DNA of 20,842 nt from a virus, in IMG/VR virus record IMGVR_UViG_3300025127_008226, positions 1-20,842 of that record; one strand, written 5' to 3'. Within the stretch, counting starts at the first letter, position 1. Each line of letters starts with the position of its first letter. The translations under genes were made by a program, and so were the position numbers. Below the pieces are notes generated by a model. It had not been told where the DNA came from and did no database searches. It saw only the letters and a list, made by a program, of their open reading frames with translations. This document shows, in pieces, positions 2,203 through 20,411 of the stretch.

Positions 2203-5200
2203 ATGCCAAGACCTACACAAAATGACAAACGACAACAGACAGGTCGCATTCCGGGCCAGCTTGAGCGAGTTCAACGACAGACCCCCGGTGTGTATGAGAC
2301 TCCTGAAACACTTGATGTATCCCAGCAGGGACAGATAAGATTTGGTGCTAACGCACAGTCTGCCTTTAGAACTGATGAAAGTTTAGCTGGTCAGTTACTT
2401 AAACAGTTACGTCCTATTACTGAAATTGTTACTGCAATTGATAAAGATAGAACTAGGCAGGACAGAGAGTTAGCAGAAGATTTGCAGATGACTGCTGATA
2501 AAATTATTTCTAACGATAATTTAACTCAAAAAGATAAACTTCGTCTGCTTCAAACTCAGTACTCTCAAGCAAAACCTAAAACAAGAAGGTTTGAAGCAAT
2601 CTTCAGTAATCAAGCTGCTGGGGCGCAGGCCAAAGTAAATGAATTAAATGACGAAGATTTTTTAATTAGTTGGATTACTAAGACAGAAGAACAAAATCTT
2701 AAAAACCCTGTATTTTCTACTAATCCTGATATCCCATCAAAAGCACAGTTTCGTAAAGATGCTGTAGAAGATGCTATTGTACAGTACCCTCACTTAAGAG
2801 ATAAATTAACGAGATGGGAAAAGGGGACAGAATTAAAAGCTTTGCAAGATCAGTTTAAATTTATTCAGGGGTTTGCTTTAAGTCAAGCAACAAATGAATT
2901 AAATATGTTAGCTTTACATGATCCTGATACATTTACGGGTTCTTTAGGAGGAGTACAGGCTACGGTAAACGGAGCCGTCTTCTCAATGGCGAAAGAAAAT
3001 GGAATTCCTGTAGAGTTAATCCGAGATAACCCAGCTATTATGGAAGAGATTACCAGCTTAGTAAAAGCAAAAACACAAGATGTTCAGAATATGGTTCAAA
3101 CTCAATCTAATATAGCAACTGCTCAAGCCAACCAAGAAAGTGCCTTTAATTCTTTTTCTACTATTCCAGAAGCTATAGCTAAAAGTAAAGGACTTAATCC
3201 ACAACAGGTATTTGCTGCTTGGAAACAAGGAAGGCAAATTAATCCCGCTTTAGCTCCGGGTCAGCTTGAATTTAATCTTTACGGTATTAGACAGGGAATT
3301 CAAGATATTGCTAATATGCAATTTGATGTCGCTGGTTCTGATATGATGTTAGATGCTATTCTTGCTTACCACCCTTTACAGTATAAAGGAGAAGAGGTAA
3401 GAGCTTTAGTAAAACAAATGAAAGAAGACCCCTCAAGTTTAGATATGGAATTTAGACAAGCAAATGCTACTTTAATTCAAAAGGTTTTAGATCAAACTTC
3501 TAATCTATATATGAATGATTTTTATGGGAGTTTAACTCCAGAAGAAAACGCGGCCCTTGCTTTAAAGGTAGGAAAAGTACAAGCAATGATGGAGTTTACT
3601 CCCTATCCTCCCTCGCCTAACGCTGATAAAACCATTCGTGATGCTCAAGTAGAACGGGCCTTATCTAGTGATGATCCTACAGATTATGAAATTGATACAC
3701 AGATGAATTTAAAAAATCTTGTAGAAGCTAAAATTGAGATGGGAATGAGCTATGGTATTCCTACTAATGAAGCGGTAGACTTACAGAAAGAATTAGATAA
3801 AGCTAGTTTTGGCACAAAATCCCCTACTCCTGAAATGATAGAAGCTAGAAACGCTCTTAATGAAAAGTTTGGAGATAGCTTTTTAACTGCTGTTGAATCT
3901 GCTGAAGATGCACAGAAAGCAGGAGAAGTTTTAAAAAATTTAGATACAGGAATTGATATTACTAAATCTGGGGGAGGTCAAATAGGGACTATATTAGATT
4001 TAGTAAACCAAAGAATTACAAGATCTATTAATTCTGTTGAAGATTTACCTCAATCCCAAGAAGGATGGCAGGCTTACTTCGGTCAGACGCAAGAAAAAGA
4101 ATATGAATACGATGCTTTGTCTGATCCTATTGACGTTACAATAAATAATTTAAGAGCTATATCAAATGCACATCCTCAGTTTATACCACTTAGAAATGTT
4201 ATTGATGATTTTGATAATGCAGAAGAAGGTGTAGATAAATACAATAACTTTATGATAGCTTTTGATGATATAGCCGATGACGAAAGACTTAAAGACTTAG
4301 AGGTAGGCGATCCTTTATCAGAATTAAGCCTTAACTTAACTGGCACTAGAAAAAATATGCTTAAAGCTATAGGACAAAACTTAGGTGGAAATGATTATCC
4401 ATTATATGATTTTAATCCTCAAACTGGTATGATTTCGTTGACTAAAGATAATACTATTGCTGTTCCTTTTCTTTTAAGCGATGCTGTTAGTCAATACGCT
4501 AATAACAACGGGAAAGTTAATAACGCTTCTGCTGAAATTTTAGCAGATAGAATGGAACAAGTAGCCGCAGAAGTTATTACTTTAGATCCAGAAGCAAGAG
4601 CAGAGTGGTTTAAAAAGAATATAAATACTGTAGTAACTTTACAAAATTTAGCTACTATAACTGATTCACCTTTGTATTCAAATAAAAAACTTAAGAAATC
4701 AACGTTCGCTTTTATAGGCGGTGTAGTAGGGTTAAAGAAAACAACTTCTGATAAATTAGCTGAGGCTGACCCAAAAAAAAGCCCCCGATTAGCCGCCATT
4801 GCTCGTAGTGTTCAAGCTAATACAGCAATGTTATTACAGGGTGGTCAAGATCTTGCAAGAGCCGCTGGTTATAGAGATGTTCTTGAAAAAAGCGTTAATC
4901 TTGTTACTAATTTTACTGAAGTTCCTGTTGAAGATATGCCAGCCAATCAAACAGATATTACAGGAACTTATAATACAAACGAAGTTCCTTATGATGATAT
5001 ATTTTATAATAGTGACAGAGACGATTATTTTCTTTTTGATATTGCAGGCGGAGATATTTGGAATAAAATACCAGTAATAGGTTGGGCGGACCCTGTTAGT
5101 CCTTTTCCAACAACTGGTGAAGTACAGGTTAGTCCTCTTTTAATGGGTTGGAGATCTCGTCCTGCTATGAAAGGAGAAGTAGCTCCTATAGATCAAAAGG

Positions 5201-6396
5201 AAATTAGAGATCTTACTAATGAAGCATACTATGACATAATTGGTACTATTGATCAAGGACGATTATTCCGGCTTGCCTCTGAAAGCGGTAAGCTAGAAGC
5301 AGGCGTAAGTGCAGCACTAGCAGCATCAGATGGTATGTCTACTACTGCAATGTCAGATCCTTTAATGGACAATTTATTAGAGGTCGGTAGAAATATGGGA
5401 TATCAGGTAATTCTTTCTCCAATGGAAGACATTGATGGTGACCGAGAAAAAAATAGAGTTTTAACCGAGGCACTAGGAGAAGAAACAGAAGGAGAAAACG
5501 CTACTAATTTTTCTATTCAAGCCTTACCTATTATCCGTTCAACCTATAATGATAATCCTCCAGCAGCTATTGAACCGCTTAGACCTAATGAAAAACAATT
5601 AGAAGTTATCCAAAATAAACTTGGATCTACAGCAGAACAACCTAATTGGGCTATGCTTGAACCTCAAGTTATACGACAACAAGCTATGCTTGGTGCTGTT
5701 CCTGCTCCCGGTAATTCAGGAGAAACTCTAATGGGACAAGTAGTTACATGGGGTTTACCAGAAGAAGACCAAAGAAGAATTGGAAAAATTCTGGATAAAA
5801 CTTTATACGAAAGAGGAGAAGGAAGAGGACCGCTTACTAAAGTAAGAACAAAGCCGGGAGACGTTAGGAAAGGATACGCGCAAACCCCGTTTAGTGCTGA
5901 AGTAGGAGGCGGTTCTTATTTAGGTTTACATAACTCAGTCGCTACTGTAACTTACTTACATAAAATGTTAATTGAAGATCCCGAGAACTTTGATTCTGTT
6001 TTAAGAGATTTAGAAAAAGACTTAGAACTTACAGATATTCAAATATCAGAAGAAACAGGGAATAATATTGTAGCTTTTTCAGAGTATAATGAAAATTCAG
6101 GGGAGTATATTTTTTACCATAAAAACGGTAAAGACGGTAAACTTGTTTTAAATGCTACCGCAACAGATAGAGAAGCAGGAATACTTGATCCTAAAGCTCT
6201 TCTTAAATTAGTTATAGACGGTGGTATTAGACACTTTGAAGGGCTTTCTCATAATGTTACTGTCGGAGGAACGGGAGAAATAGTGACTGATCCCCGCCAA
6301 CCAGTTGAGTATACTTTTTACAGAGAAGACAATTATGTTCAAAATGAGCAATATAGATCATTAAGCGATTATGAAAAAATCGTACTAGATAATTAA
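2203..6396 (+). CDS. Internal virion protein B (T7 gp15-like), enlarged
   Basis: 1397 residues. Second gene of the putative ejectosome trio, matching gp15 (747 residues in T7), which with gp16 lines the ejected channel across the periplasm. The N-terminus is Pro/Gln/Arg-rich and polar (MPRPTQNDKRQQTGRIPGQL), followed by a long alpha-helical acidic body with no signal peptide and no convincing membrane helix. The C-terminal third (from about residue 900) is richer in Gly, Pro, Tyr and Trp, for example GGDIWNKIPVIGWADP, and may hold a separate globular domain ending in a beta-rich tail. ESGKLEAGVSAALAASDGM at residues 1027-1045 faintly recalls the transglycosylase ESG...GLMQ signature but lacks the GLMQ part. 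The start has a TAAGGAGA ribosome site that includes the previous stop. Nearly twice the length of T7 gp15; the role is inferred from order. Confidence 0.7.
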   Translation: MPRPTQNDKRQQTGRIPGQLERVQRQTPGVYETPETLDVSQQGQIRFGANAQSAFRTDESLAGQLLKQLRPITEIVTAIDKDRTRQDRELAEDLQMTADKIISNDNLTQKDKLRLLQTQYSQAKPKTRRFEAIFSNQAAGAQAKVNELNDEDFLISWITKTEEQNLKNPVFSTNPDIPSKAQFRKDAVEDAIVQYPHLRDKLTRWEKGTELKALQDQFKFIQGFALSQATNELNMLALHDPDTFTGSLGGVQATVNGAVFSMAKENGIPVELIRDNPAIMEEITSLVKAKTQDVQNMVQTQSNIATAQANQESAFNSFSTIPEAIAKSKGLNPQQVFAAWKQGRQINPALAPGQLEFNLYGIRQGIQDIANMQFDVAGSDMMLDAILAYHPLQYKGEEVRALVKQMKEDPSSLDMEFRQANATLIQKVLDQTSNLYMNDFYGSLTPEENAALALKVGKVQAMMEFTPYPPSPNADKTIRDAQVERALSSDDPTDYEIDTQMNLKNLVEAKIEMGMSYGIPTNEAVDLQKELDKASFGTKSPTPEMIEARNALNEKFGDSFLTAVESAEDAQKAGEVLKNLDTGIDITKSGGGQIGTILDLVNQRITRSINSVEDLPQSQEGWQAYFGQTQEKEYEYDALSDPIDVTINNLRAISNAHPQFIPLRNVIDDFDNAEEGVDKYNNFMIAFDDIADDERLKDLEVGDPLSELSLNLTGTRKNMLKAIGQNLGGNDYPLYDFNPQTGMISLTKDNTIAVPFLLSDAVSQYANNNGKVNNASAEILADRMEQVAAEVITLDPEARAEWFKKNINTVVTLQNLATITDSPLYSNKKLKKSTFAFIGGVVGLKKTTSDKLAEADPKKSPRLAAIARSVQANTAMLLQGGQDLARAAGYRDVLEKSVNLVTNFTEVPVEDMPANQTDITGTYNTNEVPYDDIFYNSDRDDYFLFDIAGGDIWNKIPVIGWADPVSPFPTTGEVQVSPLLMGWRSRPAMKGEVAPIDQKEIRDLTNEAYYDIIGTIDQGRLFRLASESGKLEAGVSAALAASDGMSTTAMSDPLMDNLLEVGRNMGYQVILSPMEDIDGDREKNRVLTEALGEETEGENATNFSIQALPIIRSTYNDNPPAAIEPLRPNEKQLEVIQNKLGSTAEQPNWAMLEPQVIRQQAMLGAVPAPGNSGETLMGQVVTWGLPEEDQRRIGKILDKTLYERGEGRGPLTKVRTKPGDVRKGYAQTPFSAEVGGGSYLGLHNSVATVTYLHKMLIEDPENFDSVLRDLEKDLELTDIQISEETGNNIVAFSEYNENSGEYIFYHKNGKDGKLVLNATATDREAGILDPKALLKLVIDGGIRHFEGLSHNVTVGGTGEIVTDPRQPVEYTFYREDNYVQNEQYRSLSDYEKIVLDN

Positions 6397-6415: not shown

Positions 6416-9400
6416 ATGCCTATTAACTTTAGTAGTGAGAACTACTCTAAAAACGCATCTGATTATTACAAGTCTGTTCAGCAAAGTAAATACGATGAAA
6501 TTTATAAAACAAAACGAATTTCGGATATTACAGAAGAATACGAAAAAAGCGTTCAAAATACTTCTTTTGCTCTTCAGTACGGAACAGCCGCTGAAAACAT
6601 GTTAGATGAAGAAGAAGTAAATGCTTTATCAAACCAGTATGAAAATATCTTAGAGAATTCGTTTACTGCCTTTAGGTTTGACCCTAAAGAAGTTACAGAG
6701 CGTATTGCTAGAGATAATAGATTAACAATGAGTATGGTAGCAGAAGCGAATGAGGCAGGTCTTGAAACTATTCGTTTTCAGGGTAGCGATGATTTTGTAG
6801 AAAAAATTAAATACGCAATGGCTAACCCCTTAATGGCTCCTAATATTTTAAATAACCGTTTAGTTGGTTGGTTACCTGATAATTTAGGCGGTACATTTTT
6901 TGATTTAAGCGAATCTTGGAGTCAGGCATCTTATGAAAATGCTATAAACGCTCACAAAGCAATGAGTTTGTTTGGTCAGGTTCCTGAGTCCGTAGCTAGA
7001 TTAGCTAGTTATAATATAGCTGACAGGGAAACAAGAGGCGCAGTTAAAATGATTCTTGAAATGATCAAAGAAAAGGATCCTTCCTTTGAAGATGATATAG
7101 ATGCTGAGATTGTTTTAAGGCAGGCTCAGGCATTATCTATTGAAGAAAATGTCGATTGGGATAGAGACGGTTGGATGGCATGGGATATGGTTACTAGCGG
7201 TATAGACGTAATTACCGGAAAAAGTCAAGTAAACCCAGCAGCGGATTTAATTAGGTATACAGATCCTATTTGGGTTGGAGGCGAAAACAAAGAAGGAATT
7301 AGAGATCTTATTTTAAAAGCTATCGAAACTTCTGATACTTTAGATCCTAAAATTCAAGATTGGTTATCTAATAATCCAGATATTATTGATCTATTGAAGA
7401 CCTCTAGAAACGGAGCAGCTTTTACTTCTGCTATTAACCAAAAGAAACAAGAATATAAAATGGCTGCTATGTTCCAAGCAAACATGGGCGTTAAAACTTA
7501 CGGCGCACACGCTAAAGTTTTTGCTCATGGTTTCGCATTAGATCCTACTTTAGGTCTAGACATTGCTGCTACCATCGGAACAGGCGGGTTAAAAATAGTG
7601 GGAGGTATTGCTACAGGAGGTCTTAAATTAGCCGGAGCAGCATCTACTAGGATCGCAGCTAAGGTAACTTCTAAAACTCCGTTGTTAACTCGATTGAATA
7701 GTATGTCAATTAAGGCTCTTGAAAGAGAAACTAGATTTCTAAAAGCGGCTAAATTTTTAGAAAGAGGGACAGATAAAATTACCCTCCTTCAAAAATTCAT
7801 GCCTACTCAGATCTTGTCCGAATTGTTAGTTCCCTTAGGGAAACGATTGCTTACATCTGGTAAAGACGAAACCACCGATTTAATCAGCTATTTAAAGGGA
7901 TCTGATTATTTACCAAAATCAGTTACAGGTAGAGCTATGTACAGATCTATAGCTGGTTCAATCGAAGGTCTTGCTTGGGGTAGGATCGAATATGGTTATG
8001 CGTCAGCCTTTGAAGACTCCTTAAACGTAGCAATGTACGGTCAAGAACAGGCTGATACAATTGCTTATATGAGGAACCAGTCGGGAATGATGACTCAATC
8101 AATGATCATGGGTGGTATCATGGGCGGTGTCTTAGGTCCAGCTATTGGCGGAACTTTTGACGCTGCTGGAGCAACTGTTACCGGAACTGCTAAACTTCTC
8201 AATAAGTGGTCTGAAGTTAACCCTGATAACTGGCTTAATAGAACTACCGCATTTGCAGAAAAAAACTTTCAAGATAGGATAGCTAAAACATCTTGGTGGG
8301 GTGTAACAAAATCTATTGTTAATGTTGCTACAGAAAACAACATCACAGCAGATTCTCGTCTTAGTGTAAACAAAGCTCTTCCTAAAATTGACTTCGGTTC
8401 TTCAGAAGAATCAGTCTCTAATAATATTAATGTATTAGAAACCGAGTTGAGCAAGTTAGCCTCTGACTCAAGTGAAGCTGGGGTTGTAAACTTCCAGAAA
8501 GCAGTTGACAGTGTAGTTGACAGTATTCCTGAAGGGGAAACAATTAGTGCTGCTGATTTTACAATGAAAGTGCAAAACGCTTTAGCTGAACAAATTAAAG
8601 ATAGACGGAAAAGGCTGGGGTGGCGTGTCAACTTACTTAAAGGAACTGTTAAACAAATCTCTGATTTAGATAGCGATACAAAAAGAAATAACTTAACTAA
8701 TGACGGTAAAGAACCAGAAGTAATACGAGAAACAGAAGGCAACGAGTTTTCAGAAGAAGCTAGTAGATTGGCTGAGGAAAAAGCAGCACGGGAAACCACG
8801 TTAGCAGAAAAAGAAGAACAACTTGAAACCTTAACAGAACAGGTAACTGATCAAAAAAACAAAAACAAAGAAAACCCAGAAGAAGCTGATACGGAAGCTG
8901 TAACTGAACTAGAAGAAAAAATTCAAGAGCTTGAGCCTGAGATTGAAACAGAAAAACAAGACATCGAAGAATTGGGACTTAGGGTCGCGCAAGCAGCCGC
9001 CAATCACTCTGCCACTAATAAAGAAAGTGTTATTAACAATCAAACAGTATTTAACAAGCTTCTTAAAAAGAAGTTGTTAGCGGATATTGGCAAAGAAGGT
9101 AAAATGCATCCTATTGCTGCTATGATGGCATTTGGTATGGATGAAACCTTAGTTCGTAAGATGAAAAACGGAGCTACCTTAGAACAAAAAGCTGTTTTAG
9201 ATAAACTGTTAGCTTTTGATCCCGAACTAGCACCATTAGATGGTAACGAAATTTCTGCTCTTAAGGATGTTATTGAAGAAAACTTCTTACAAGAAATGGG
9301 CGTTAGGGATGAAGTGATGCCTCACACTTTATTCGATCAGCTAATCAAAGAAGGAGTCTCAGAAGAAGCTGCGTTTAACGAAGCCTATAACTTCTCATTT

Positions 9401-12400
9401 GAGGAGCTTGCCGCTGATGACGCTAGGAAAGGATTAGACGTACTTACTGATGACGAGGGTAATTCTTTACTTACCGAAGAACAGCAGTCTGCTCTTGATA
9501 AAGCAATCGAAGATGTTAACCAAGTTCGAGATAGAATTAATGAGGGCGATGTCTCTGATTTAAGCTTTAACAAAAATCTTCTTAATAATCTAGCAGAAGC
9601 TTTAGGTATTGAGAGACCTAATAAAATTAAAGATAAGAAAGTTCTTGAAGCTAAAATTAAAGAAGCGTGGGCTAAGGCTTCTAAAGAACAACGAGAAGCT
9701 TATGATGATATTATTATTGATAGAGATCTCACAGACGATATCTTTAAAAGCAAAGCTACTCAAAACATTGAAGCAACTATTAGAGCGGCTGTAGAAGAAC
9801 AAGGTGATGATTTAATTAAAAGGATGAAACAAACCTTACGAAATGAAAGTGATGAGTATCAGCTTGTTCAGAAAAAAATCAGCGACTTTTTAAAACCTTT
9901 CAGAGAACAGGTGACTATAGGAACTGATGCAGATACGGCAAAATCTAATAAGTCAAGTACTGTCTTGTTGTTACTTGGTTTAGTAGAAGCTAATAAAGTA
10001 AACGAAATGCGTACACAGAAGTTTATCAATCTTTTGTCGGAGGGGCGGTTTGAAGCAGCCCTTGAAATGCTCCTTGTTCGTCAAGGCGATGATCCACAGC
10101 AAATAAAAAACAATGAGTGGGCTACGGCTATGGAGAAAGGCATTGGAACGATAGGGTCGGTTAGAGATATGATGGGAAGGGCTAGTAATGGTAAAGACCC
10201 TAACGCAACCCAGTATCTTCGGAGTGAACTTCCTAGATCGTGGAGAGAAAGAGGCGATGGTCTTAAGGTTAATACTATCGAAGTAGTCGAACAACCTAAG
10301 ACTGCTAGAGATTATTTAGCAGAGAACGGAACAGATCAACAAAAGAAAACTTTTGCTGCTTTAGAAAAAGAAGAAGCGAAGGTACGGAAAGCTATTGACT
10401 CTTACGTAGAAAGTCAACGACAGCAGATTATTAACGATAAGGTTAGAAAGTCTGCTGAACGTGTTATTGCTCAGACTAAACCAGCTATTGGTTTTGTTCG
10501 TCCTATTTTAAAAGCATTGCAGTCTGTAAACGGACATATTGTAAGAGCTAAAAGTAGCACAGCTAATGTGTCTGGTGACATTCAAACTGAATTTTCATTT
10601 GATATTTCAATTGGAAGAGATGAATTAATTGGTGTTTTAAAAGCTAATGACTTATTAGGAGTTATGCACGAAATTGACAAACAATCAGGGACTCTTAATC
10701 AAAAAGTCGAAAAATATGATTCTAAGATAGTAATGAATGCCCTTCAAGATAAACTAGTTAGCGTAGCCCCGTCTTTACGAGATGTGTTTATCCCCGGATT
10801 ACAAAGAATCTACGACAATATGTATAACAGTAGGATTGAAGGTACTGGTTTGTATAAGGGTGAAGGATCAGTTAGAAACTTACTAGATGAAATGGACAAA
10901 ACTTTAGATGCTGAAGCTTCTTTCTATACTAAAGAGTTTGAAGCTAACGGTAGTCGATACTACACTGACGAAAATTTATATGATTTAGATGCTGCATCTT
11001 GGGATAGGGAATTTACTAAAGCTCTTAATAACTTAGACTTTAAAGATTATTTCGATGACTTAGGAGAATCTGTTACCCCTGAACAAAAAGTCTCTAGGGT
11101 TTTATCGGATTTAAATGAAAGTTTAGGAGATAGAAAACTTACTAATGCTAATGAATTAGGATCGACTAGGGGAGCTTTAGGTCCAAAAAGAGCAGCTAGA
11201 GCTATAAGAAGTGCTTTGATGGGAGAAAGGGCTACTACTTCCTCAGTATCAGAAACATCTGCTATCGTTACAGGAGGACGTTTAGAAGCAAAGAGAACCT
11301 TAGGTGCTGACAGGGCTGTAGGTATTCAGAAGGAAACAGATAGCCAGCTTCTTGATATGTTTGACGAGTATGTGGTTCAGAAACGTCAAGGATATTTCTT
11401 AGATGACGATCTTACGGATGAAGACTTGGATGTGTTAGAAGAGTTCTTAACTAATGTTAGAATTAAAGATATTCCTAACAGGGTACGAGCAGAAAACAGT
11501 CTTCTGCCTACTATGGTTATTGAGTCCCTAACACAGAAACTTCCTCAAAACATCGAACAATTAATTGAGCAGAATAAAATTAACATGCTTAGAAGCGATC
11601 CAGCTTTTATGTCTACTGTTCACGATGCTATTTTCCCTATGCTATCGTCCGAAATTAGCACCAAAGGTAAGCACTTTGCGTGGAACTACAAGATTAAGGG
11701 TAAGGACGGAGAAGACATCTATCCGTTTAGAGGCTTAGGATTTGGTTTCCCTATTGCTGATGCACGACCTGATACAATCAATGCGGCATTAGCGGCAGCT
11801 ACTGAAATTACGTTTAACTACGAAAACTTACTTAGCACTGGATTTAAAACTTGGGAAACGGGATCATGGAGAAGTAAACTAGACCCTGCTACCAGAGAAA
11901 AAATTCCAGAAGATATGTCATTCGGAGACTTTTTCTTTGGGGATGGTATTAAACAGTTATCTAACGATGAACAAAAAGCTGTAGCAAAAGAATTGTTCCC
12001 TAACATCGGAGAATTTGATGCAGACGCTTCAGGTAACAACGTTGTAGTTGCTATTGTAAACGGAGTTGAAGGAGCAGGAGCTACTAGAGACTTCTTATCA
12101 GAGTTAATTAAACGGGTTGATGAAGGTCAGTTAAATGACTTTTTAGAAGAAAACTATAAAACCTCTTATGAGCGCACTAAAGATATCGTACAAAACGATT
12201 TAAACAGCGATAGCACAAGAGAAAGAATTAAAGAGGCAGCCAAAAGAGGTCAAGCCAGTCCTGATTTAGATGAAGCTATTCAAGTTTCTGCTCAAATTTT
12301 TAATTACGAAGACGCTGACGGTAATCCTTTGCTTGACTTAAAAGCAATCATGAAGAACCCCAGCATGACCCAACCTTACGGTGCTGGTGTCGGATCTATG

Positions 12401-15400
12401 GCGCAAGCTATTAGAGAAAACTTCTTTGTAAAGTATAAAGATCTACTTATTAAAGATGTAAATGTTCCTATTACAGCAGCAAACTTTGAACGTATGTCTA
12501 GGGTTGCCTCTACGTTATTAGCTAACGGTTTCCATGAAAGCTCCGCTAAACACGGATTATCTTGGGTTAATACTAACTTGTTCGGTAAAGACACTAAGAT
12601 TACTAACGAGACTCTTAGAGATACGTTAAACAGGTTTAGAAGCGTAAGAAAAGATTATCTTGGATCGTCTTCTCTTAGAGGAGCAGGAGATGCAATTAAA
12701 GACCCAAGCGGTGTAAGATCACTAGTAGCAGATAACACGGCAAAAGAACAATCACTCGATGCTATTATGGAAGGTGCTGATCCAGAACTGTCTCAAGCTG
12801 ATTCGTTTACTCATATGATGAGGCAAATGATGGCTCAGGCTGTTGTTCTTACTGATAATGGCTACGCTAAAAACGAAGTTCAAGCTGGGTCTGATATTAG
12901 AAAACTTATTATGGGTATGGTAAAAGACGCTGAAGGTAATACAGAACTTCAAAAAGCAATCGCCAACGAAAACTACCCAGAAGCACGAAGACTTTGGTCT
13001 GATATCACAAATCAAGACGAAGTTAATAATATTAAATTGTCTGCTCTAAATAGTTACATCCGACAGGCTCATACTTTTGACGGAGAAAAATTTAATAAAT
13101 TACTTACTAGCTTAAATCTCCAAACTCTTTCTGAAGATATTATGGACAGCTTATCGCCAATGGGCCGAAAAGCATTTGTTCAAAACTTCTTTAGAGAATT
13201 AGCAATCGGGCCTGATCACGGACGAATGTACACAAAAACAACTTCTCCCGATTTGTTAGTTGATAAATTAGTACGACCTGACGATACTTCATCTTTCTCA
13301 ATTGCCAGTATGAAGCCAGATAATCTTCCCCGTGATGCGGAATCTTTTGATGCTGAAATTAGAAAGTTAACGCTTCTTGATTTAGCTAAAAAGATTTCTT
13401 CTTTTGTGGAAGACGAAGATATGCCTGTTCTTCCTTCAAAGGGTAAATTCGATCCTTCAAGCAGAGAAGGATTCTTAAGGGAATGGAAAAACAACAGTGA
13501 CTTGTCACGAAAGATACGAAGAAAAGCAAAACAACAGCTTGTTAAAATTGACGGCCTTGAGTTTGATGGGTTAAACACAGAGAAAAAAGAAGCACTTATG
13601 GTGCTTAAGAAAATGTTGTCTAAAATTGTAGATAGCGGTATTGATGCTAGAGATGGTTCTATTGACGATCTTATGGCAGGAATTACCGAACGAGATACCA
13701 GACAACAAGTTAACGCTATGCCCAGTGCTTTAGGATTTTTACCTAAAACTTTCTTATCTGATTTTAACGAAGCACCTGCTACTATTCTTCGTAAAGCTCA
13801 GTTAGAACGAACCCAAAGCGTTAAAACAATGAGGTCTCTTGAAAGTCAAATTAAAGATAAAAGAGTTACCATACAGCAAGATCCTTTTTCAGTTGAAGAG
13901 TTAGCTTATGTTAATACCTTGGGTAATATCGAAGCTATTAAACCTCTTGCATTTAAAGCTATGTTACCTACGTCTGTCTTTGATACAGTGGCATTAAACA
14001 TTACAGATTCTCCTTCTCTTAGGACAACTCAAGCCGCCGTCAAAACAGAATTAGATACTTTTGTAGATAACGTAAAGTCAATCGGAGGTAATAAAGAATT
14101 AGAAGAGGCAGCTAAAAAAGGTAAATACGATATTGTATTATTACATTATTTTGCTACGTTGGCTTCAAAGCAAGCTATGAAAAACAGACAAGACATTAAA
14201 TTAGCTTCTGATGCTTTTGAAGAACGCAAAAGAACTTTTGTTGCCTCTCTTGGTAAAGTAACTGACGAGGAGATTATCGAAGCTATCAAATCAAACAGTG
14301 CTTTGCAGGATGCTGAAAAAGAACTTAGATTGCTTATTGATGCTTCTTTATTAGAAGAAGAAAGTACCTTACGCAGTCTTCTTCAGTGGGGACATGACGC
14401 AAAACGAAATATTACTGACTTATATGATCTCCAAGGCGATTCTATTGATACAGTGTATTCAGGTAGAACTATTGAAGAAAGTATTCAAAACACAATTGTA
14501 AACAATGACATTACAGCAGGTAACTTATTAGCTTGGCTTGCTAACGACGCTGAGTTCTTAGGACAGGTTTTAGTAGATGATCCCGCATCTAGGTATGTTG
14601 ATGCTCATGGTGGTAATAGACCCGAACGAGCTTTAAACGCTCTAGGTGTCTTTTCTACAGGTGACTCACCTTCGTTATATTTAGCTGCTTACGCTCAAAA
14701 CTATGGAAAGCGGTATACCATTTCTTCTATTTTAGGCGTACCCCAAGAAAACATTACTTCAGCGGAAATTCAAGCTTATAGAATTTGGTTAGATGCTAGG
14801 TATAAACTAGATTATGAAACAATGGATAGAATTAAAACGGATTTCCCTGACTTAGTAGAAGCTTTAGAAAATCCAGATAATGCTTCTAATCTTTTAAAAC
14901 TAGAGTTAGAAGGTAAACAAGCCGCAGTAAAGAGTTTTGATAACACAGCTTTGTTAAGTGAAATAACTAGAAATATTCCGTTAACAGAAGCCGTTGCAAA
15001 CGATCTTTTAGAACAGTATCCTAACATTGAGCAAATTATTTCTAGGGTTAGCCCTGATATGACTCTTGAACGTTTACTGTCCAGTAAATCAGAAACATTG
15101 CTGGGTAATAAACATAAAGCTCTTGTTAACCAGTTTGGAGATGTTACTGCTCCTCACAGAATTATAGGTAACGCTAAAATTAAACTAATGGCAGGAGAAA
15201 AATTAAACTCTGCTAACTCGATTGGAAGTAAAGATTTAGTTGATGCTATGCGATTAACTTCTTCTCTTGGTTTAGAGTCAATGCCTTTTGATCAAACCTT
15301 AGCTGGTAATATTACAAGTTATGATCCGTTTACTAAATTCGGGTCATCAATTAGCAGAACTAGAAGACAAGCTGCTATTCTTACAGAAGCAATGAAGGGT

Positions 15401-18400
15401 ATTGTTAAAGGTAAACCAGAATCAGAAATTGTTGTGGATAAGCGGAATAGTTTTATTTCAGGAGGTAAAACAAAACAAGCAGAATTTATTGCTTACAGTC
15501 CCGAACAAATTAGTACCGCTCTTTCAGTCTCTGAAGAAATTATGGCTAAGGGTATATTGCGTGATTTAGATTTAGATGATGTTATGTTAGATAGTATCTT
15601 TAACACAGAAGATAATAAAAGCCGAAATAAGAGCGACGTTTATAGGGCAGCTAGGCTTGTTCCCTTCCTTTCAAAAGAATCTTCAGAGTATAACATCTTT
15701 AAAAGGCAGCAGGCTATTAAAGAATCGTTAAGAAGCAATAAACTAATTGACGATATTACGTTGTTCAATGATTTTAAAGATAATGTTCTTCCTATTCTTA
15801 AGGATATTAAAAAAGCTATTCATAAACGAAAAGAAAGTAAAATTAAAAACGATCCGAATGTTTCTCAAAATATGTTTGATGATTTCTATCTTTCTGATGA
15901 TTGGTTTAATGCTACAGTAAGAAATACTGACGCATCAGATGATTTAAACACTCCTTCTGTTAATGATACTTCTGTTTATGAAAGCAATTCTGTAGAAACT
16001 GTAAAAACAGAAGCAGTTGCTGAAGCAGAGATAACTACATTAAGACAAAGAAACAATAGTTCGGATGCTTTAAGCGGAGTTAACACAATTGATTTTGCTT
16101 TCAGCGATCAGTCGTTTGGTTCTTCTAAAGCACACCGTAGATTTTTACAGGGTATTAATCCGTTGGTTAAAAGAGGCGTTTTAACTAATGACGATGCTCT
16201 ATTACTTAAAGTAGTATTTAACGATAGATCTAATGCAGGGTTGTTAGAAAGTTTATTTGATCAAGAAGATTCAGTAACCTTTGGAGTTAACGAAGAGGCT
16301 ATTAGTTCTTCTGTGACTGACTTGCAAACTTTTAGAACTAGAATTGAAGTCGCTCATAATCTTGCTACACAGTTTGGTAAAATTAACGAGTTGGGTGCTG
16401 CTGGGGTTGTCTTAGAAGAACTTGGACACGCTATTGGTAAACGAATGAGCAATCAAGGAGTTCAAGAGTTTATCATTAGGGCGAAACAGTTATTAAAAAA
16501 CGAAGAAGGGTTTGACTCTTTTATTGCTCTTGAAAAAGAACTGTTTGGTGATACAACAAGAGTAGATTACGATAGTAGAATTCAACATATTCGTAAGTTT
16601 ATTGATGAAGACGAAGATGTAAAATCTGTCAGAAGTAATGAAACATTTGGAATTATGTTTGCTATTTCTACTATTTTAGGTAAAGATGTCAAGAGTTTGC
16701 TTAACACTGAAGAACATTTATTTAGTGAATTATACGGAATGAGTAATCACTATATGGCACGATTAAACTCGTTTTATAATTTAGCTGAATCTTCTCCCTT
16801 AAGTATTGATGATTTTCAACACCCTATTAATATTAAAGATAATTTAACTTCGGTTGTTTACACTATACACGACAAACCGGCAGATCCAAGGCCAGACTTT
16901 GATCCAAATCACATGTATAATAGGGCAACACAAACAGGTAATTTAGACGAGCAAAGAGAGGCTTATTTAGACGATAACATTAAAGCTGCTACTGAACCAG
17001 ACGGGCGATTTAACCCTAATAAATTAGACGATAACCCTCATAACAAAGTTAGGGCTATTTCAAAACATTTAGATAGTCTTGTTAAAGACGCAAGTGCTGG
17101 TACGCTTATTGATACTCCAATGTTTGAGTTAATGTCTAATCTTTCTGGCGGTTTAATGTCAAGACAATTTGTTGAAAAAGCTATGCTAAATCTTGCTCAA
17201 CCATTTGGAGGAAGAAAATTCGCTTTCTTAGCAAACAATAAAAATGGCATGAGTGGTACTTTATTGCTTCTTATGGGTATGGTTGACACCAAGATGCTTG
17301 TGTCTACTTCGTCCTTTAACACAGCACTTCCTACTATGCAGGGTCTTCAAGTTCATTTAGATGGTATTTTTGAACCTTTAATGAAACCATTGTTAGAAAT
17401 TAAAAGACGTAACATTACTGAAGGTATGGACAAAAACAGTTCGTACAGAACTTTTGTTAATCTCTTTTGGAAGATGACAATGAATAGAGATGATGCTGGT
17501 AATATTAGGGGATGGGCCGGTGAAACAAGAGCTAAAGAAATTGCTATAGATGAGTTAGCTAAATCTTACCAGAGATCAGGAGAAGAATTACCGTTTGACC
17601 CAGAAACGGGCAAATTAACTGATCCAGAGTTAGACAACACAGTAGATGTTTTAGTGTCTACCGTAAAGGCTTGGTCAAACTCTGAGAATGGGATTTGGCA
17701 ACAGATTTTAACTGCTCAAGTTGATAACGGTAAGTTTGACGCTACTTTTGCTACGGACGCTATTATGAGTGGTGTTGTCCCAGTTAAATTTATTGATGAA
17801 GTATTTACAAGAGGAGAAGCAAGCACTCAAGATGTACGAGAAACCTTTAGGTTTGATTTTGCTGATCATCTTTATTCTTCAATGACTGACAGAAATAATA
17901 TGTTTATACACGAAGATTTATTCCACTTAGTGTTTGCGGATAAATTAGAAGGAGACGTTAATGCTCCTACTCGTATTAACGGTATGTCAAAAGCTACTGG
18001 TGTTTACCAGAAGTATTTAGAAGATTCTACAACTCCTTCAGAAGCTTGGGGTAATTTTACATCTGATATTAAATCAGGAAAAATCAGTAAGTACGATTTA
18101 TTAGACGGAGAAGAACTTAAGTTTTTCTACGAAGCTATAGATAAACAAGACTTTAACTTAACTAAAAACCAAGCTGAAATAATGAATATGCTTGAGAATA
18201 GGCTTAATGCTCAAACAGCCAAATCAGGTAAAAGGTCAATTTCAACAAGTAATAAGAACAAACTTACAGAATTTGTAGCGGAAAATTATATAGCAAGGGC
18301 AGGTTCTTCTGCATACACCTTTATTAACGATAGATTTTTAAATACTTCTCGACTCCTAGATGACCCCACTATGGAACCCTACCTTAACATGGATCCAATT

Positions 18401-20341
18401 GAAATTTTTGATTCATTGAAACGAGGTCAAGCGGGTCAAGCATTTGATAGACAGATTATGGGAAATGCATTAGGAATGAAAGGATTTGGAATTGGTGATT
18501 TAATTCGTTTACTTCGTACTACCAATGAAGATTCTACTTTTAAACAAGAAGATGTTATTGTAAACGCTAACTTACAGGGCGTTACAAAAAGAACCTTAGG
18601 TCAAACAGAAAAAGAAAAATACTCTAAAGCACTTGAGTATCTTGAAGATGCTTACAATTTTGCAATGGGTAATTTATCTTACGATAAGGTAGACGGAAAG
18701 GCTATTCCCTTTATTGGAATGCTTACGACTATTGCCGATGCAGGTACAGCTTTAAGTGTCGGCCCTCGTTTAGGTATGGCTGCATTACTTGAAGAAACTC
18801 CTATGGCTCTTATTGGGGAGCTTAAATCATCCTTAGATTCTATTAGGCAAGAAGGCCGATCTTCTCTGTTAAGTTTATTTAAACTTGGTAACAAAGATGA
18901 ACTCCAAGGTTGGATTCAGGGTATGGGCCACATTACAAGAGACTTGCAATTTGAATCTAACCAGATGTTGGCTAAATTAGGCGTTGACCCAAGGCAAATT
19001 AAGGGTAATGTAATGGACTCCGGCATCCAACGTCTGTATAAGTGGACTTCAGCAGGTTTGACATCTCAGACTAACATTAACCGCGCCCGTGGCGTTAGGA
19101 AGTGGATTAACGATTTAAACACAATGTTTATGAATGAGTCAGAAGCAATTATCACGTTTAAAGATGCTGACGGTAATGATGTTACTGTTAATGGTAAAAA
19201 CTTAAAAGAAAACGCGACTTTTGATATGGTATATGAGGTGGTTCAAGAAATGGGCGATCTCACTCAGTATACCTCTACGGAAATTAAACAGAACCTTAAA
19301 CAACTTAAAATCAATGATGAAACATTAGATATTATTATTGACATGATGAAAAATGGTTTATTTACAGAAGAGTTAGCACCTATCTTTAAAAAGCTTTGGT
19401 CGGATAACTATGAAGCTATTGTCCAAACAGGAATTCCGTTTGAAGAGATGATGAAGACAATTACGTTTGATTATAACTCTTCAGCTAAAGAAAGAGCAAA
19501 AACTTCTCAGGTTATTATGGCTTTGAGAGAGATTGCATTTACTGCTTCTACTAGATATGCAAAGCAGCCCACTCTTTCAGAAAATGCTAGTATCGGCTCC
19601 CGAAGACTTGGTGCTTTCTCTCGGTTGGCTGTTCAGTTAACAAACTATGCTTCTTCTGTGTTTGGATCATTAAGAAAAGCAGCAAGTATTTCTCCTGCTC
19701 TATTTGCCTCAGCTTTCTTAGGACATGCCATTTCAGGGTACATGTATTATAAATTAGTCCAAATGCAAAACTCTAAATCTTTTGATGAAATTCTTAAAGA
19801 TTGGGAAAAAGATCCTATGCAGGAAATTAGAGATGCTTTAATGTCTGTGCCATTCTTTGGTATGAACCAAATGGTTATTACGGCTATGCTGCAAGTGTTA
19901 CGAGGTGAGCGTCCCACAAACACGCAAATCTTTAACTACGCTTCGTTGTCCATGATTAACAGGATTCTTCAGTTACCCGCCAAAACAATGAAAAGCGTTG
20001 GTGATATTCAGGAAGGAAATACTGAACGCGGTGTTGCTAACATATCGTCTACGGTCCCCCTTCCCTATATGCCTATTCTCTCTGCTGCAATCAGATCTTG
20101 GGATAAAAGCTCGCCTACTCCCCAGCTTATGAGAAACAGACAGAAAACCAATAGGCCACTCCCGGCACCCCCAACTCCAGCTAAAACTAAGTTGCCTGCT
20201 CCTGAGGTGCCTAAGAAGAAATCCGCTGCTCCTAGACAAACAACGACTACCCCCGAAAGAAGGGGAATAGACAGTCCTAGTGCAGTTCCTAAGGATCTAA
20301 AAGAAGCTCTTAATCAAAGCTTTAAACCAAAGCCGTATTAA
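6416..20341 (+). CDS. Giant internal virion protein C (T7 gp16-like / large polyvalent protein)
   Basis: 4641 residues, roughly 510 kDa, against 1318 for T7 gp16. As third gene of the core trio it is expected to be packed inside the capsid and ejected first into the cell envelope. Visible parts: helical N-terminus; glycine-zipper hydrophobic segments (383-409, 563-585); acidic coiled coil (779-859); a small SAP/HeH-like helical motif (1051-1085); a very long polar helical body; a zincin-like segment with EELGH (3334-3338); a region with weak RNA-polymerase-palm resemblance (3583-3842); amphipathic and hydrophobic helices (about 4109-4140 and 4400-4500); and a Pro/Lys-rich tail (4567-4641). 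No lysozyme or transglycosylase motif was found at the N-terminus, where T7 gp16 has one. The start has TAAGGAA at 6404-6410, five bases before ATG. The 13.9-kb frame is uninterrupted. Alternatives: an N4 virion-RNA-polymerase relative or another 'polyvalent' co-injected protein. Virion location is likely; exact chemistry is unknown. Confidence 0.72.
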   Translation: MPINFSSENYSKNASDYYKSVQQSKYDEIYKTKRISDITEEYEKSVQNTSFALQYGTAAENMLDEEEVNALSNQYENILENSFTAFRFDPKEVTERIARDNRLTMSMVAEANEAGLETIRFQGSDDFVEKIKYAMANPLMAPNILNNRLVGWLPDNLGGTFFDLSESWSQASYENAINAHKAMSLFGQVPESVARLASYNIADRETRGAVKMILEMIKEKDPSFEDDIDAEIVLRQAQALSIEENVDWDRDGWMAWDMVTSGIDVITGKSQVNPAADLIRYTDPIWVGGENKEGIRDLILKAIETSDTLDPKIQDWLSNNPDIIDLLKTSRNGAAFTSAINQKKQEYKMAAMFQANMGVKTYGAHAKVFAHGFALDPTLGLDIAATIGTGGLKIVGGIATGGLKLAGAASTRIAAKVTSKTPLLTRLNSMSIKALERETRFLKAAKFLERGTDKITLLQKFMPTQILSELLVPLGKRLLTSGKDETTDLISYLKGSDYLPKSVTGRAMYRSIAGSIEGLAWGRIEYGYASAFEDSLNVAMYGQEQADTIAYMRNQSGMMTQSMIMGGIMGGVLGPAIGGTFDAAGATVTGTAKLLNKWSEVNPDNWLNRTTAFAEKNFQDRIAKTSWWGVTKSIVNVATENNITADSRLSVNKALPKIDFGSSEESVSNNINVLETELSKLASDSSEAGVVNFQKAVDSVVDSIPEGETISAADFTMKVQNALAEQIKDRRKRLGWRVNLLKGTVKQISDLDSDTKRNNLTNDGKEPEVIRETEGNEFSEEASRLAEEKAARETTLAEKEEQLETLTEQVTDQKNKNKENPEEADTEAVTELEEKIQELEPEIETEKQDIEELGLRVAQAAANHSATNKESVINNQTVFNKLLKKKLLADIGKEGKMHPIAAMMAFGMDETLVRKMKNGATLEQKAVLDKLLAFDPELAPLDGNEISALKDVIEENFLQEMGVRDEVMPHTLFDQLIKEGVSEEAAFNEAYNFSFEELAADDARKGLDVLTDDEGNSLLTEEQQSALDKAIEDVNQVRDRINEGDVSDLSFNKNLLNNLAEALGIERPNKIKDKKVLEAKIKEAWAKASKEQREAYDDIIIDRDLTDDIFKSKATQNIEATIRAAVEEQGDDLIKRMKQTLRNESDEYQLVQKKISDFLKPFREQVTIGTDADTAKSNKSSTVLLLLGLVEANKVNEMRTQKFINLLSEGRFEAALEMLLVRQGDDPQQIKNNEWATAMEKGIGTIGSVRDMMGRASNGKDPNATQYLRSELPRSWRERGDGLKVNTIEVVEQPKTARDYLAENGTDQQKKTFAALEKEEAKVRKAIDSYVESQRQQIINDKVRKSAERVIAQTKPAIGFVRPILKALQSVNGHIVRAKSSTANVSGDIQTEFSFDISIGRDELIGVLKANDLLGVMHEIDKQSGTLNQKVEKYDSKIVMNALQDKLVSVAPSLRDVFIPGLQRIYDNMYNSRIEGTGLYKGEGSVRNLLDEMDKTLDAEASFYTKEFEANGSRYYTDENLYDLDAASWDREFTKALNNLDFKDYFDDLGESVTPEQKVSRVLSDLNESLGDRKLTNANELGSTRGALGPKRAARAIRSALMGERATTSSVSETSAIVTGGRLEAKRTLGADRAVGIQKETDSQLLDMFDEYVVQKRQGYFLDDDLTDEDLDVLEEFLTNVRIKDIPNRVRAENSLLPTMVIESLTQKLPQNIEQLIEQNKINMLRSDPAFMSTVHDAIFPMLSSEISTKGKHFAWNYKIKGKDGEDIYPFRGLGFGFPIADARPDTINAALAAATEITFNYENLLSTGFKTWETGSWRSKLDPATREKIPEDMSFGDFFFGDGIKQLSNDEQKAVAKELFPNIGEFDADASGNNVVVAIVNGVEGAGATRDFLSELIKRVDEGQLNDFLEENYKTSYERTKDIVQNDLNSDSTRERIKEAAKRGQASPDLDEAIQVSAQIFNYEDADGNPLLDLKAIMKNPSMTQPYGAGVGSMAQAIRENFFVKYKDLLIKDVNVPITAANFERMSRVASTLLANGFHESSAKHGLSWVNTNLFGKDTKITNETLRDTLNRFRSVRKDYLGSSSLRGAGDAIKDPSGVRSLVADNTAKEQSLDAIMEGADPELSQADSFTHMMRQMMAQAVVLTDNGYAKNEVQAGSDIRKLIMGMVKDAEGNTELQKAIANENYPEARRLWSDITNQDEVNNIKLSALNSYIRQAHTFDGEKFNKLLTSLNLQTLSEDIMDSLSPMGRKAFVQNFFRELAIGPDHGRMYTKTTSPDLLVDKLVRPDDTSSFSIASMKPDNLPRDAESFDAEIRKLTLLDLAKKISSFVEDEDMPVLPSKGKFDPSSREGFLREWKNNSDLSRKIRRKAKQQLVKIDGLEFDGLNTEKKEALMVLKKMLSKIVDSGIDARDGSIDDLMAGITERDTRQQVNAMPSALGFLPKTFLSDFNEAPATILRKAQLERTQSVKTMRSLESQIKDKRVTIQQDPFSVEELAYVNTLGNIEAIKPLAFKAMLPTSVFDTVALNITDSPSLRTTQAAVKTELDTFVDNVKSIGGNKELEEAAKKGKYDIVLLHYFATLASKQAMKNRQDIKLASDAFEERKRTFVASLGKVTDEEIIEAIKSNSALQDAEKELRLLIDASLLEEESTLRSLLQWGHDAKRNITDLYDLQGDSIDTVYSGRTIEESIQNTIVNNDITAGNLLAWLANDAEFLGQVLVDDPASRYVDAHGGNRPERALNALGVFSTGDSPSLYLAAYAQNYGKRYTISSILGVPQENITSAEIQAYRIWLDARYKLDYETMDRIKTDFPDLVEALENPDNASNLLKLELEGKQAAVKSFDNTALLSEITRNIPLTEAVANDLLEQYPNIEQIISRVSPDMTLERLLSSKSETLLGNKHKALVNQFGDVTAPHRIIGNAKIKLMAGEKLNSANSIGSKDLVDAMRLTSSLGLESMPFDQTLAGNITSYDPFTKFGSSISRTRRQAAILTEAMKGIVKGKPESEIVVDKRNSFISGGKTKQAEFIAYSPEQISTALSVSEEIMAKGILRDLDLDDVMLDSIFNTEDNKSRNKSDVYRAARLVPFLSKESSEYNIFKRQQAIKESLRSNKLIDDITLFNDFKDNVLPILKDIKKAIHKRKESKIKNDPNVSQNMFDDFYLSDDWFNATVRNTDASDDLNTPSVNDTSVYESNSVETVKTEAVAEAEITTLRQRNNSSDALSGVNTIDFAFSDQSFGSSKAHRRFLQGINPLVKRGVLTNDDALLLKVVFNDRSNAGLLESLFDQEDSVTFGVNEEAISSSVTDLQTFRTRIEVAHNLATQFGKINELGAAGVVLEELGHAIGKRMSNQGVQEFIIRAKQLLKNEEGFDSFIALEKELFGDTTRVDYDSRIQHIRKFIDEDEDVKSVRSNETFGIMFAISTILGKDVKSLLNTEEHLFSELYGMSNHYMARLNSFYNLAESSPLSIDDFQHPINIKDNLTSVVYTIHDKPADPRPDFDPNHMYNRATQTGNLDEQREAYLDDNIKAATEPDGRFNPNKLDDNPHNKVRAISKHLDSLVKDASAGTLIDTPMFELMSNLSGGLMSRQFVEKAMLNLAQPFGGRKFAFLANNKNGMSGTLLLLMGMVDTKMLVSTSSFNTALPTMQGLQVHLDGIFEPLMKPLLEIKRRNITEGMDKNSSYRTFVNLFWKMTMNRDDAGNIRGWAGETRAKEIAIDELAKSYQRSGEELPFDPETGKLTDPELDNTVDVLVSTVKAWSNSENGIWQQILTAQVDNGKFDATFATDAIMSGVVPVKFIDEVFTRGEASTQDVRETFRFDFADHLYSSMTDRNNMFIHEDLFHLVFADKLEGDVNAPTRINGMSKATGVYQKYLEDSTTPSEAWGNFTSDIKSGKISKYDLLDGEELKFFYEAIDKQDFNLTKNQAEIMNMLENRLNAQTAKSGKRSISTSNKNKLTEFVAENYIARAGSSAYTFINDRFLNTSRLLDDPTMEPYLNMDPIEIFDSLKRGQAGQAFDRQIMGNALGMKGFGIGDLIRLLRTTNEDSTFKQEDVIVNANLQGVTKRTLGQTEKEKYSKALEYLEDAYNFAMGNLSYDKVDGKAIPFIGMLTTIADAGTALSVGPRLGMAALLEETPMALIGELKSSLDSIRQEGRSSLLSLFKLGNKDELQGWIQGMGHITRDLQFESNQMLAKLGVDPRQIKGNVMDSGIQRLYKWTSAGLTSQTNINRARGVRKWINDLNTMFMNESEAIITFKDADGNDVTVNGKNLKENATFDMVYEVVQEMGDLTQYTSTEIKQNLKQLKINDETLDIIIDMMKNGLFTEELAPIFKKLWSDNYEAIVQTGIPFEEMMKTITFDYNSSAKERAKTSQVIMALREIAFTASTRYAKQPTLSENASIGSRRLGAFSRLAVQLTNYASSVFGSLRKAASISPALFASAFLGHAISGYMYYKLVQMQNSKSFDEILKDWEKDPMQEIRDALMSVPFFGMNQMVITAMLQVLRGERPTNTQIFNYASLSMINRILQLPAKTMKSVGDIQEGNTERGVANISSTVPLPYMPILSAAIRSWDKSSPTPQLMRNRQKTNRPLPAPPTPAKTKLPAPEVPKKKSAAPRQTTTTPERRGIDSPSAVPKDLKEALNQSFKPKPY
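7562..8170 (+). other. Glycine-zipper hydrophobic segments of the giant protein
   Basis: Two membrane-seeking stretches lie within residues 383-585. The first has an internal near-repeat, GTGGLKIVGGI followed by ATGGLKLAGAA. The second reads MIMGGIMGGVLGPAIGG and resembles the N-terminal segment of the 240-residue gp14-like protein. Gly-x-x-x-Gly spacing of this kind favours close helix packing in membranes. I infer that these segments insert into the host envelope after ejection; that they are real membrane helices is not shown. Confidence 0.5.
8750..8992 (+). other. Acidic coiled-coil segment of the giant protein
   Basis: Residues 779-859 are almost purely Glu/Lys/Gln/Leu/Ala with heptad-like Leu spacing, for example EKEEQLETLTEQV and LEEKIQELEPEIETEKQDI. 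A break around NKENPEEADTE separates two helices, so a helical hairpin is likely. It would act as a spacer or oligomerisation element; no enzymatic role is suggested. Confidence 0.6.
9566..9670 (+). other. Possible SAP/HeH-like helix-extended-helix motif
   Basis: Residues 1051-1085 show LLNNLAEALGI, a short basic link (RPNKIKDKK), then VLEAKIKEAW. This fits the 'L..la..lGi...k.kk.eLi..I' pattern of SAP, HeH and LEM-type nucleic-acid-binding helices. If real it could hold DNA or RNA inside the capsid or during ejection. The motif is short and could arise by chance in a helical protein. Confidence 0.3.
16088..16750 (+). other. Zincin-like metallopeptidase segment with altered HExxH motif
   Basis: Within residues about 3225-3445 a hydrophobic run leads into VVLEELGHAIGKRM. 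Zincin metallopeptidases carry HExxH followed by A/I at this point; here the first His is Glu3334, while Glu3335 and His3338 are kept. About 100 residues later TEEHLFSELYGMSNHYM places Glu3438 where a gluzincin-type third zinc ligand would sit. Comparable HELGH...E segments are known in large polyvalent phage proteins. With a metal ligand missing, the domain is probably inactive as a protease or uses another geometry. Confidence 0.5.
19613..19915 (+). other. C-terminal hydrophobic helical region of the giant protein
   Basis: Residues 4400-4500 contain a small-residue, aromatic-rich hydrophobic run (NYASSVFGSLRKAA, then ASISPALFASAFLGHAISGY) and, after a charged break, SVPFFGMNQMVITAMLQVL. Similar hydrophobic regions close to the C-terminus are common in gp16-like and other co-ejected giant phage proteins. 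I infer a role in membrane passage or core assembly at the portal. Confidence 0.5.
20114..20338 (+). other. Proline/lysine-rich C-terminal tail of the giant protein
   Basis: Residues 4567-4641 are low-complexity and basic, for example RPLPAPPTPAKTKLPAPEVP followed by KKKSAAP and TTTTPERR, ending in FKPKPY. The tail is expected to be disordered. It could bind packaged DNA, act as a docking peptide for portal or core partners, or be the leading end in ejection; none of these is shown by the sequence. Confidence 0.65.
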
Positions 20342-20363
20342 AAACCCACAGTATAACAAAAGT

Positions 20364-20411
20364 GAGTGGGAGTCTATAGATTTCTTTCTATAGACTCCCC
20401 TCTATTATACT
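20364..20411 (+). terminator. Rho-independent terminator after the ejectosome genes
   Basis: A perfect 13-bp stem, GGGAGTCTATAGA (20368-20380) with TCTATAGACTCCC (20387-20399), encloses a 6-nt TTTCTT loop. It can be lengthened by GAG (20364-20366) with CTC (20400-20402) around a bulged T. A T/A-rich stretch follows rather than a clean T run, so efficiency is uncertain. It sits 27 bases after the stop of the giant gene and would end or reduce the long virion-gene transcript. Confidence 0.78.

Follow-up and report, generated by a model that had tools for sequence, protein, structure and literature searches.

A giant cysteine-free protein as a candidate ejected virion RNA polymerase in uncultured T7-type phages

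The giant gene and its relatives

The window, by which we mean the whole analyzed stretch of 20,842 bases (virus record IMGVR_UViG_3300025127_008226), carries a giant open reading frame (ORF) for a protein of 4641 amino acids (aa). The giant gene follows a gp14-like gene and a gene in the gp15 position, and occupies the third position of a T7-type ejection cassette (Table 1). We describe here the evidence that the middle of this protein holds a divergent single-subunit RNA polymerase (RNAP) domain, and we propose that the protein may be ejected into the host cell to work as a virion RNA polymerase.

Table 1. Features of the window, with positions on the 20,842-base stretch and residue numbers of the giant protein.
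Feature	Position	Strand	Evidence or remark
Large terminase gene, T7-type (gp19-like), 3' part	2..979	+	PHROG terminase large subunit, 2.9e-46; Pfam Terminase-T7_RNaseH-like, 3.7e-32
gp14-like first ejection protein, 240 aa, 0 Cys	1469..2191	+	Pfam T7_gp14, E = 0.021 (below cut-off), and position
gp15-position second ejection protein, 1397 aa, 0 Cys	2203..6396	+	Position; no family match
Giant ORF, 4641 aa, 0 Cys	6416..20341	+	ATG to stop, 0 internal stops; proposed ejected virion RNA polymerase
Residues 1-950, homologous to the separate A ORF of two-ORF relatives	6416..9265	+	Profile matches both ways
Single-subunit RNAP-like domain, residues ~1540-2420	11033..13675	+	28-member alignment A11; invariant catalytic columns
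Motif C-like TVHDAI, H1736-D1737, upstream of motif A	11615..11632	+	H and D invariant in A11
Motif A EFDADASGNNV, D1868 and G1873	12011..12043	+	Invariant columns; relatives have IDGAQNGVRHALA and FDxxxNGxHHxLA
Motif B block around KNPSMTQPYGAG, K1980 and Y1988	12341..12388	+	Invariant columns; relatives have KRPVMTRSYGAG and KPPVMTKPYGAG
T/DxxGR-like PDHGRMY, R2270, downstream of motif B	13211..13234	+	R invariant in A11
Degenerate zincin-like metallopeptidase site, residues 3331-3412	16406..16651	+	EExxH; HExxH in several relatives
Best conserved C-terminal region of the giants, residues 3900-4560	18113..20095	+	Window-clade slices match G008 (1e-10), G017b (5.6e-8), G007 and others
Terminator-like hairpin directly after the giant gene	20356..20400	+	GGGAGTCTATAG-ATTTCTTT-CTATAGACTCCC; identical sequence after the giant gene of G001

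The uninterrupted frame had been reported in an earlier note on this DNA, here called the sequence-only reading, and the comparison with relatives confirms that the ORF is real. An intact homolog of 4661 aa, 71% identical from end to end, was identified in the sister genome IMGVR_UViG_3300031851_000014 (G001), and the giant ORF is therefore not an artefact of a single assembly. The codon-position differences between the two genes (0.23/0.15/0.41), with a dN of 0.21 and a dS of 1.05 (dN/dS ~0.2), indicate purifying selection over the entire length. Further intact single-ORF giants of 4609, 4674, 4735, 4668 and 4715 aa are found in other contigs. We also considered internal repeats as a source of the size of the window protein, and found short families at chance level only.

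Early scans with the entire giant reached G001 alone, and three slices of it gave no matches in a tblastn search of 50,697 phage records. The wider clade was reached through the terminase, for which a scan of IMG/VR yielded 80 loci with terminase identities of 47-100%. The nearest cultured terminases are 36-42% identical and belong mostly to phages of ~40 kb, three of which have gp16-slot proteins of ~1.2-1.6 thousand aa. The sister genome G001 encodes T7-type RNAP, primase-helicase, DNA polymerase, exonuclease and ribonucleotide reductase, along with a head-tail adaptor/portal protein, a major head protein and gp11/gp12-type tail proteins.

Contigs followed downstream of the terminase show the giant to be a general feature of these uncultured T7-type phages, encoded either by one ORF or by two neighboring ones, A of 853-1511 aa and B of 3946-4172 aa where complete. 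A profile of the window's clade matches the A ORFs G009a (2e-5) and G021a (1.6e-3), and the A-ORF profile matches the N-terminal part of the single-ORF giants G007 (1.9e-16), G008 (5.5e-9) and G004 (5.6e-5), so that the single ORF corresponds to A+B.

A polymerase-like domain with rearranged motifs

Direct Pfam and PHROG scans of the window giant returned chance-level matches alone (DUF1659 below the cut-off, phrog_14853 at E = 0.006). The sequence-only reading had found no recognizable domain in residues 900-3200 and had left this middle part unexplained, which still describes direct searches with the window protein. It no longer does so once the relatives are used, as residues ~1540-2420 are then seen to be RNA-polymerase-like and the middle is explained in part.

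The domain emerged when the B proteins were aligned with the giants, which exposed a block of invariant catalytic columns. In the resulting alignment (A11) of 28 homologs, which are otherwise 13-46% identical to the query, eight columns are invariant (H, D, G, D, G, K, Y and R), and H1736-D1737, D1868, G1873, K1980, Y1988 and R2270 of the window protein are among them. Judged by sequence comparison, this set is the catalytic set of the T7 and N4 single-subunit polymerases. Some relatives are nearer to the textbook motifs. The protein G019b, for example, has IDGAQNGVRHALA, KPPVMTKPYGAG, MIHDDYGTL and VQDWRTRMYVSSAILNPKG, and its MIHDDYGT(L) aligns to the motif C MIHDSFG of T7-type RNAPs.

These relatives also provide the link to known families. 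G019b and G023 match the PHROG RNA polymerase family phrog_414 (1.9e-13 and 5.6e-6), and G019b matches the Pfam family RNA_pol, PF00940, at 1e-8 (34.9 bits against a cut-off of 22). A tblastn search with the G019b domain against the same 50,697 phage records matched nine records, all of them in RNA polymerase genes. The window's clade is in turn tied to the B-type profile over 703 columns (E 1.4e-18) and the B-type profile to G019b (1.2e-10), a relationship also seen in the collinearity and shared C-terminal homology of the proteins. When the A11 profile was compared with ~1130 proteins, the top matches outside the family were N4-type virion RNAPs (vRNAPs) and a T7-type RNAP (1.1e-5 to 9e-3). 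Likewise, motifs A-B of the domain were matched by hhalign to the N4 vRNAP profile (4e-4), and in the comparison of A11 with T7-type RNAPs the PDHGRMY block was aligned to the FRGR motif (E = 2e-4). Taken together, the sequence evidence supports well the assignment of residues ~1540-2420 to a divergent single-subunit RNAP domain. No relatives of this domain were found in bacterial genomes.

The order of the motifs in the giants is C-A-B-T/DxxGR, whereas it is T/DxxGR-A-B-C in the T7-type and N4 polymerases. Alignments of G019b with four T7-type RNAPs by hhalign gave successive local matches for A-B (1.8e-6), T/DxxGR (0.012) and C (0.017) in the changed order; for 31 control slices taken from other regions of the giants the scores were 0.13 or worse. 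The B-type family showed the same rearrangement of T/DxxGR and A-B against T7-type profiles and, weakly, against N4-type profiles. A downstream candidate for motif C in the window's clade (TDNGYA, residue 2147) was discarded, as G002 and G003 do not conserve its Asp. Permuted palms are known for some viral RNA-dependent polymerases; no example of a T7-type polymerase with a permuted palm was found in the literature searched.

Cysteines, ejection and the surrounding genes

The window giant has no cysteine in 4641 aa, where the other proteins of the phage would predict 57 (P ~1e-25) and the gene's own base composition 63. For the giant, the gp14-like and the gp15-slot proteins together the count is zero against ~77 expected, and 38 gp15-slot proteins of the clade contain 3 cysteines in 53,425 aa. 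Cysteine-free are also the gp15 and gp16 proteins of CRP-114 and of a Limnohabitans phage, as well as gp50, gp51 and gp52 of N4, which are the three ejected proteins of that phage. Most other proteins in G001 contain 0.5-2.7% cysteine, the exceptions being a cysteine-free protein of 426 aa and a protein of 2221 aa (L004, 9500-16165) with 91 cysteines (4.1%) and no PHROG match, which is the opposite of the ejection proteins.

That the giant lacks cysteine entirely, like gp14, gp15 and the ejected trio of N4, is an argument for its passage through the portal. Along with the gene order, this lack supports the view of the sequence-only reading that the giant is the third-position protein of a T7-type ejection cassette and probably an injected virion protein with extra domains. 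Absence of cysteine is also a simple marker for predicting injected phage proteins. In N4, gp52, gp51 and gp50 belong to a conserved operon that provides an outer-membrane complex, a periplasmic tunnel and the virion RNA polymerase, and the vRNAP is reported at 4 +/- 1 copies per capsid (PMC12633501), a precedent for a megadalton-scale load of such a protein in one capsid.

A different pattern is seen in the two-ORF relatives. All 13 distinct A proteins, which are 20-44% identical where alignable, have exactly one cysteine, and it always lies among the six C-terminal residues (P = 1.6e-29 if placement were uniform). The B proteins that follow have a cysteine at position 3-6, mostly their only one. 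Junctions with this pair (L055, L052, L028, L038, L021, L079, L053, L061, L043, L071, L029, L076) are accompanied by nearly no other cysteine in ~5000 residues. The residues that flank the terminal cysteine are not conserved, and the fused giants of the window's clade have no cysteine. From the cysteines at the end of A and the start of B we infer that a disulfide probably joins the two proteins end to end, so that they would pass as a single chain. Under the reducing conditions of the cytoplasm B could then come free of A, and fusion would take the place of the disulfide in the window's clade. The terminal pair offers a directly testable case of two proteins traveling as one thread through the portal.

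Two further modules were identified outside the polymerase region. The zincin-like site reads EELGH at residues 3334-3338 in the window protein and departs from the HExxH of zincin (SprT-like) metallopeptidases. HExxH is present in G007, G008, G009b and G023, while the first His is replaced by Glu in the window's clade and in G005 (loci noted for the site in relatives: L102, L099, L103 and L101); SprT-like matches were below the cut-off and obtained in relatives only. A DnaQ/RNase_H_2-like 3'-5' exonuclease domain lies upstream of the polymerase region in 10 B-type relatives (PF13482, 1.5e-6; among the loci L111, L110, L103, L108, L112, L115, L105 and L113, it is degenerate in some). It was searched for in the window's clade and not detected.

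Between the terminase and the gp14-like gene lies a small gene (976-1467) that by eye resembles a sulfotransferase-type P-loop protein; it has no family match and is conserved in many loci of the clade. The terminase and this sulfotransferase-like gene are 99 and 98% identical between the window and G002 (L011), whereas gp15 is 34% identical over its N-terminal part and the giant 29-37%. Between the window and G001, the giant is 71% identical and gp15 just 40%. The ejection genes look exchanged or fast-evolving beside a near-identical terminase. Downstream of the giant, the strong hairpin has CTATAGATTTCT in common with a second site in the window (20436-20447), 62 bases further on. It is followed by a small ORF (20461-20664), possibly a lysis gene, whose product has a hydrophobic N-terminal stretch and a tail of charged residues. 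CTATAG, considered as a repeated phage promoter, was not enriched in G001. In some relatives, a second, short T7-type RNAP gene lies just downstream of the B giant (L108, 16978-18768, profile E 2.3e-13; L114, 3411-5300, 1.5e-8), a possible parallel to the later polymerase of N4.

Explanations and known systems

We consider it probable, at roughly 0.7, that the giant acts as a virion RNA polymerase and is, among the ejection proteins of a T7-type podophage, the third one and the one that reaches the cytoplasm. The protein would be packed in the head and, once the gp14-like and gp15-like channel proteins have gone ahead, be threaded through the portal and the tail. Refolded in the host, it would transcribe the incoming genome before the host polymerase or one made by the phage takes over. 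The N-terminal ~950 residues would represent the module that the relatives make as the separate protein A.

Several observations weigh against this hypothesis. The window protein itself matches no Pfam or PHROG RNAP model, and the link runs via its relatives. Sequence searches of the PDB, among them one of 177,635 sequences with the A11 profile, found no RNAP. AlphaFold2 predicted residues 1500-2420 of the window protein with a pLDDT of 54 and the same region of G016b with 62.9, with the palm below 50, and Foldseek and VIA-align matched the second model mostly to helical bundles and to no RNAP of this type, although the models are too poor to be informative either way. The order C-A-B-T is no cyclic permutation of T-A-B-C, so that more than one rearrangement is needed. 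Furthermore, G001 also has an ordinary T7-type RNAP gene, and the depletion of cysteine fits any ejected protein, polymerase or not.

The position after the gp14-like and gp15-slot genes and the lack of cysteine, as in the gp15 and gp16 proteins mentioned above, would also be in line with an overgrown T7 gp16, that is, the inner-membrane and cytoplasmic part of a channel that pulls DNA in, with no polymerase activity and with the extra length as linker or host-acting cargo. The enlarged gp16 of the sequence-only reading is not supported by our data, since ten profiles of the window's clade gave no matches to the gp16 proteins of CRP-114, YIMV22061 and HTVC200P, and no SLT or transglycosylase family was matched by the window giant at E<=1 in Pfam or PHROGs. 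As polymerase catalytic residues are moreover invariant through the clade, we regard this explanation as unlikely. A domain of polymerase origin, no longer catalytic and used in genome entry as a motor or a scaffold that binds DNA, would account for the window-clade motif A (DADASGNNV), where the His/Gln pair usual for T7-type enzymes is absent, and would go with the degenerate zincin site of the same protein and the sister phage's own polymerase. The eight catalytic-set columns that remain invariant at such low identities would be unexpected for a dead enzyme, and this explanation seems to us less likely again.

The exonuclease domain of the B-type relatives brings to mind a nucleic-acid polymerase with another job, for instance in the synthesis, repair or priming of DNA on the genome as it enters. 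Both motif A (Dx3[SN]Gx[QH]H) and motif B (Kx3MTx2YG) are, however, of the RNAP type and not of the family A DNA polymerases, the family matches are RNA polymerases and the exonuclease goes undetected in the window's own clade, so that we see only a slim chance for such a role. The smallest chance of all we give to a polyvalent, host-acting protein of the counter-defence type that is delivered with the DNA and resembles an RNAP by coincidence. It would explain the mosaic of unrelated-looking domains, zincin-like and exonuclease-like ones included, and the strong divergence beside near-identical terminases, but would have to put down to chance both the significant RNAP matches and the joint presence of all catalytic motifs.

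For the clade as a whole, the virion polymerase hypothesis can be drawn more sharply. This uncultured T7-type lineage may eject a virion RNAP of the order C-A-B-T/DxxGR within a cysteine-free or nearly cysteine-free chain of ~4.6-5.7 thousand residues, mostly made as A and B, stapled by one disulfide and possibly released in the cytoplasm, and fused in the window's clade. We give this fuller scenario an even chance. Virion RNA polymerases of the single-subunit kind are a known feature of the N4-like family (Schitoviridae), and if the hypothesis is true, the virion-polymerase strategy arose or spread beyond that family, into the T7-type ejection cassette. T7-type phages would then not need to wait for the host RNA polymerase and may bring their own transcription enzyme. 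The rearranged catalytic motifs would also provide a natural test of how far the palm fold tolerates a change in connectivity.

Like the polyvalent proteins of phages, the giants combine many domains in one long chain, with zincin- and exonuclease-like modules in relatives, but their core is polymerase-like and no recognized polyvalent-protein domain family was matched. They resemble T7 gp16 in gene position, in the absence of cysteine in the T7-type phages checked and in the presumed ejection, and differ from it in being three to four times longer and in having the RNAP-like domain. With the T7-type RNAPs (PF00940, phrog_414) they share motifs A and B in order and with similar spacing, together with the invariant catalytic residues, and in G019b also a recognizable motif C and DWRGR-type motif. 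What sets them apart from these enzymes is the position of C before A and of T/DxxGR after B, in a domain that sits within a giant chain free of cysteine.

The nearest parallel to the giant in function is N4 gp50. Both are giant single ORFs and the third gene of an ejection operon, after a small and a medium ejection protein, with all three products free of cysteine. Both have single-subunit RNAP catalytic residues in mid-chain, with an alike motif A (D-x3-N-G) and motif B (K-N-P...Y-G). Unlike the 3500-aa gp50, the window giant has 4641 aa and the motif order C-A-B-T, not T-A-B-C, and the detectable similarity is confined to the A-B block and, weakly, the GR motif; no other slice matches gp50. 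The phages also differ from N4 in their T7-type terminase, in the T7-type RNAP gene of the sister genome and in the split A+B forms with terminal cysteines. Given the different motif order and the lack of homology over the full domain and the N- and C-terminal parts, we do not place the giant in the gp50 family, and with neither a transglycosylase domain nor gp16 similarity found we do not assign it to T7 gp16 either. We favor the interpretation that it is an ejected virion RNA polymerase that is functionally like N4 gp50 and structurally distinct from it.
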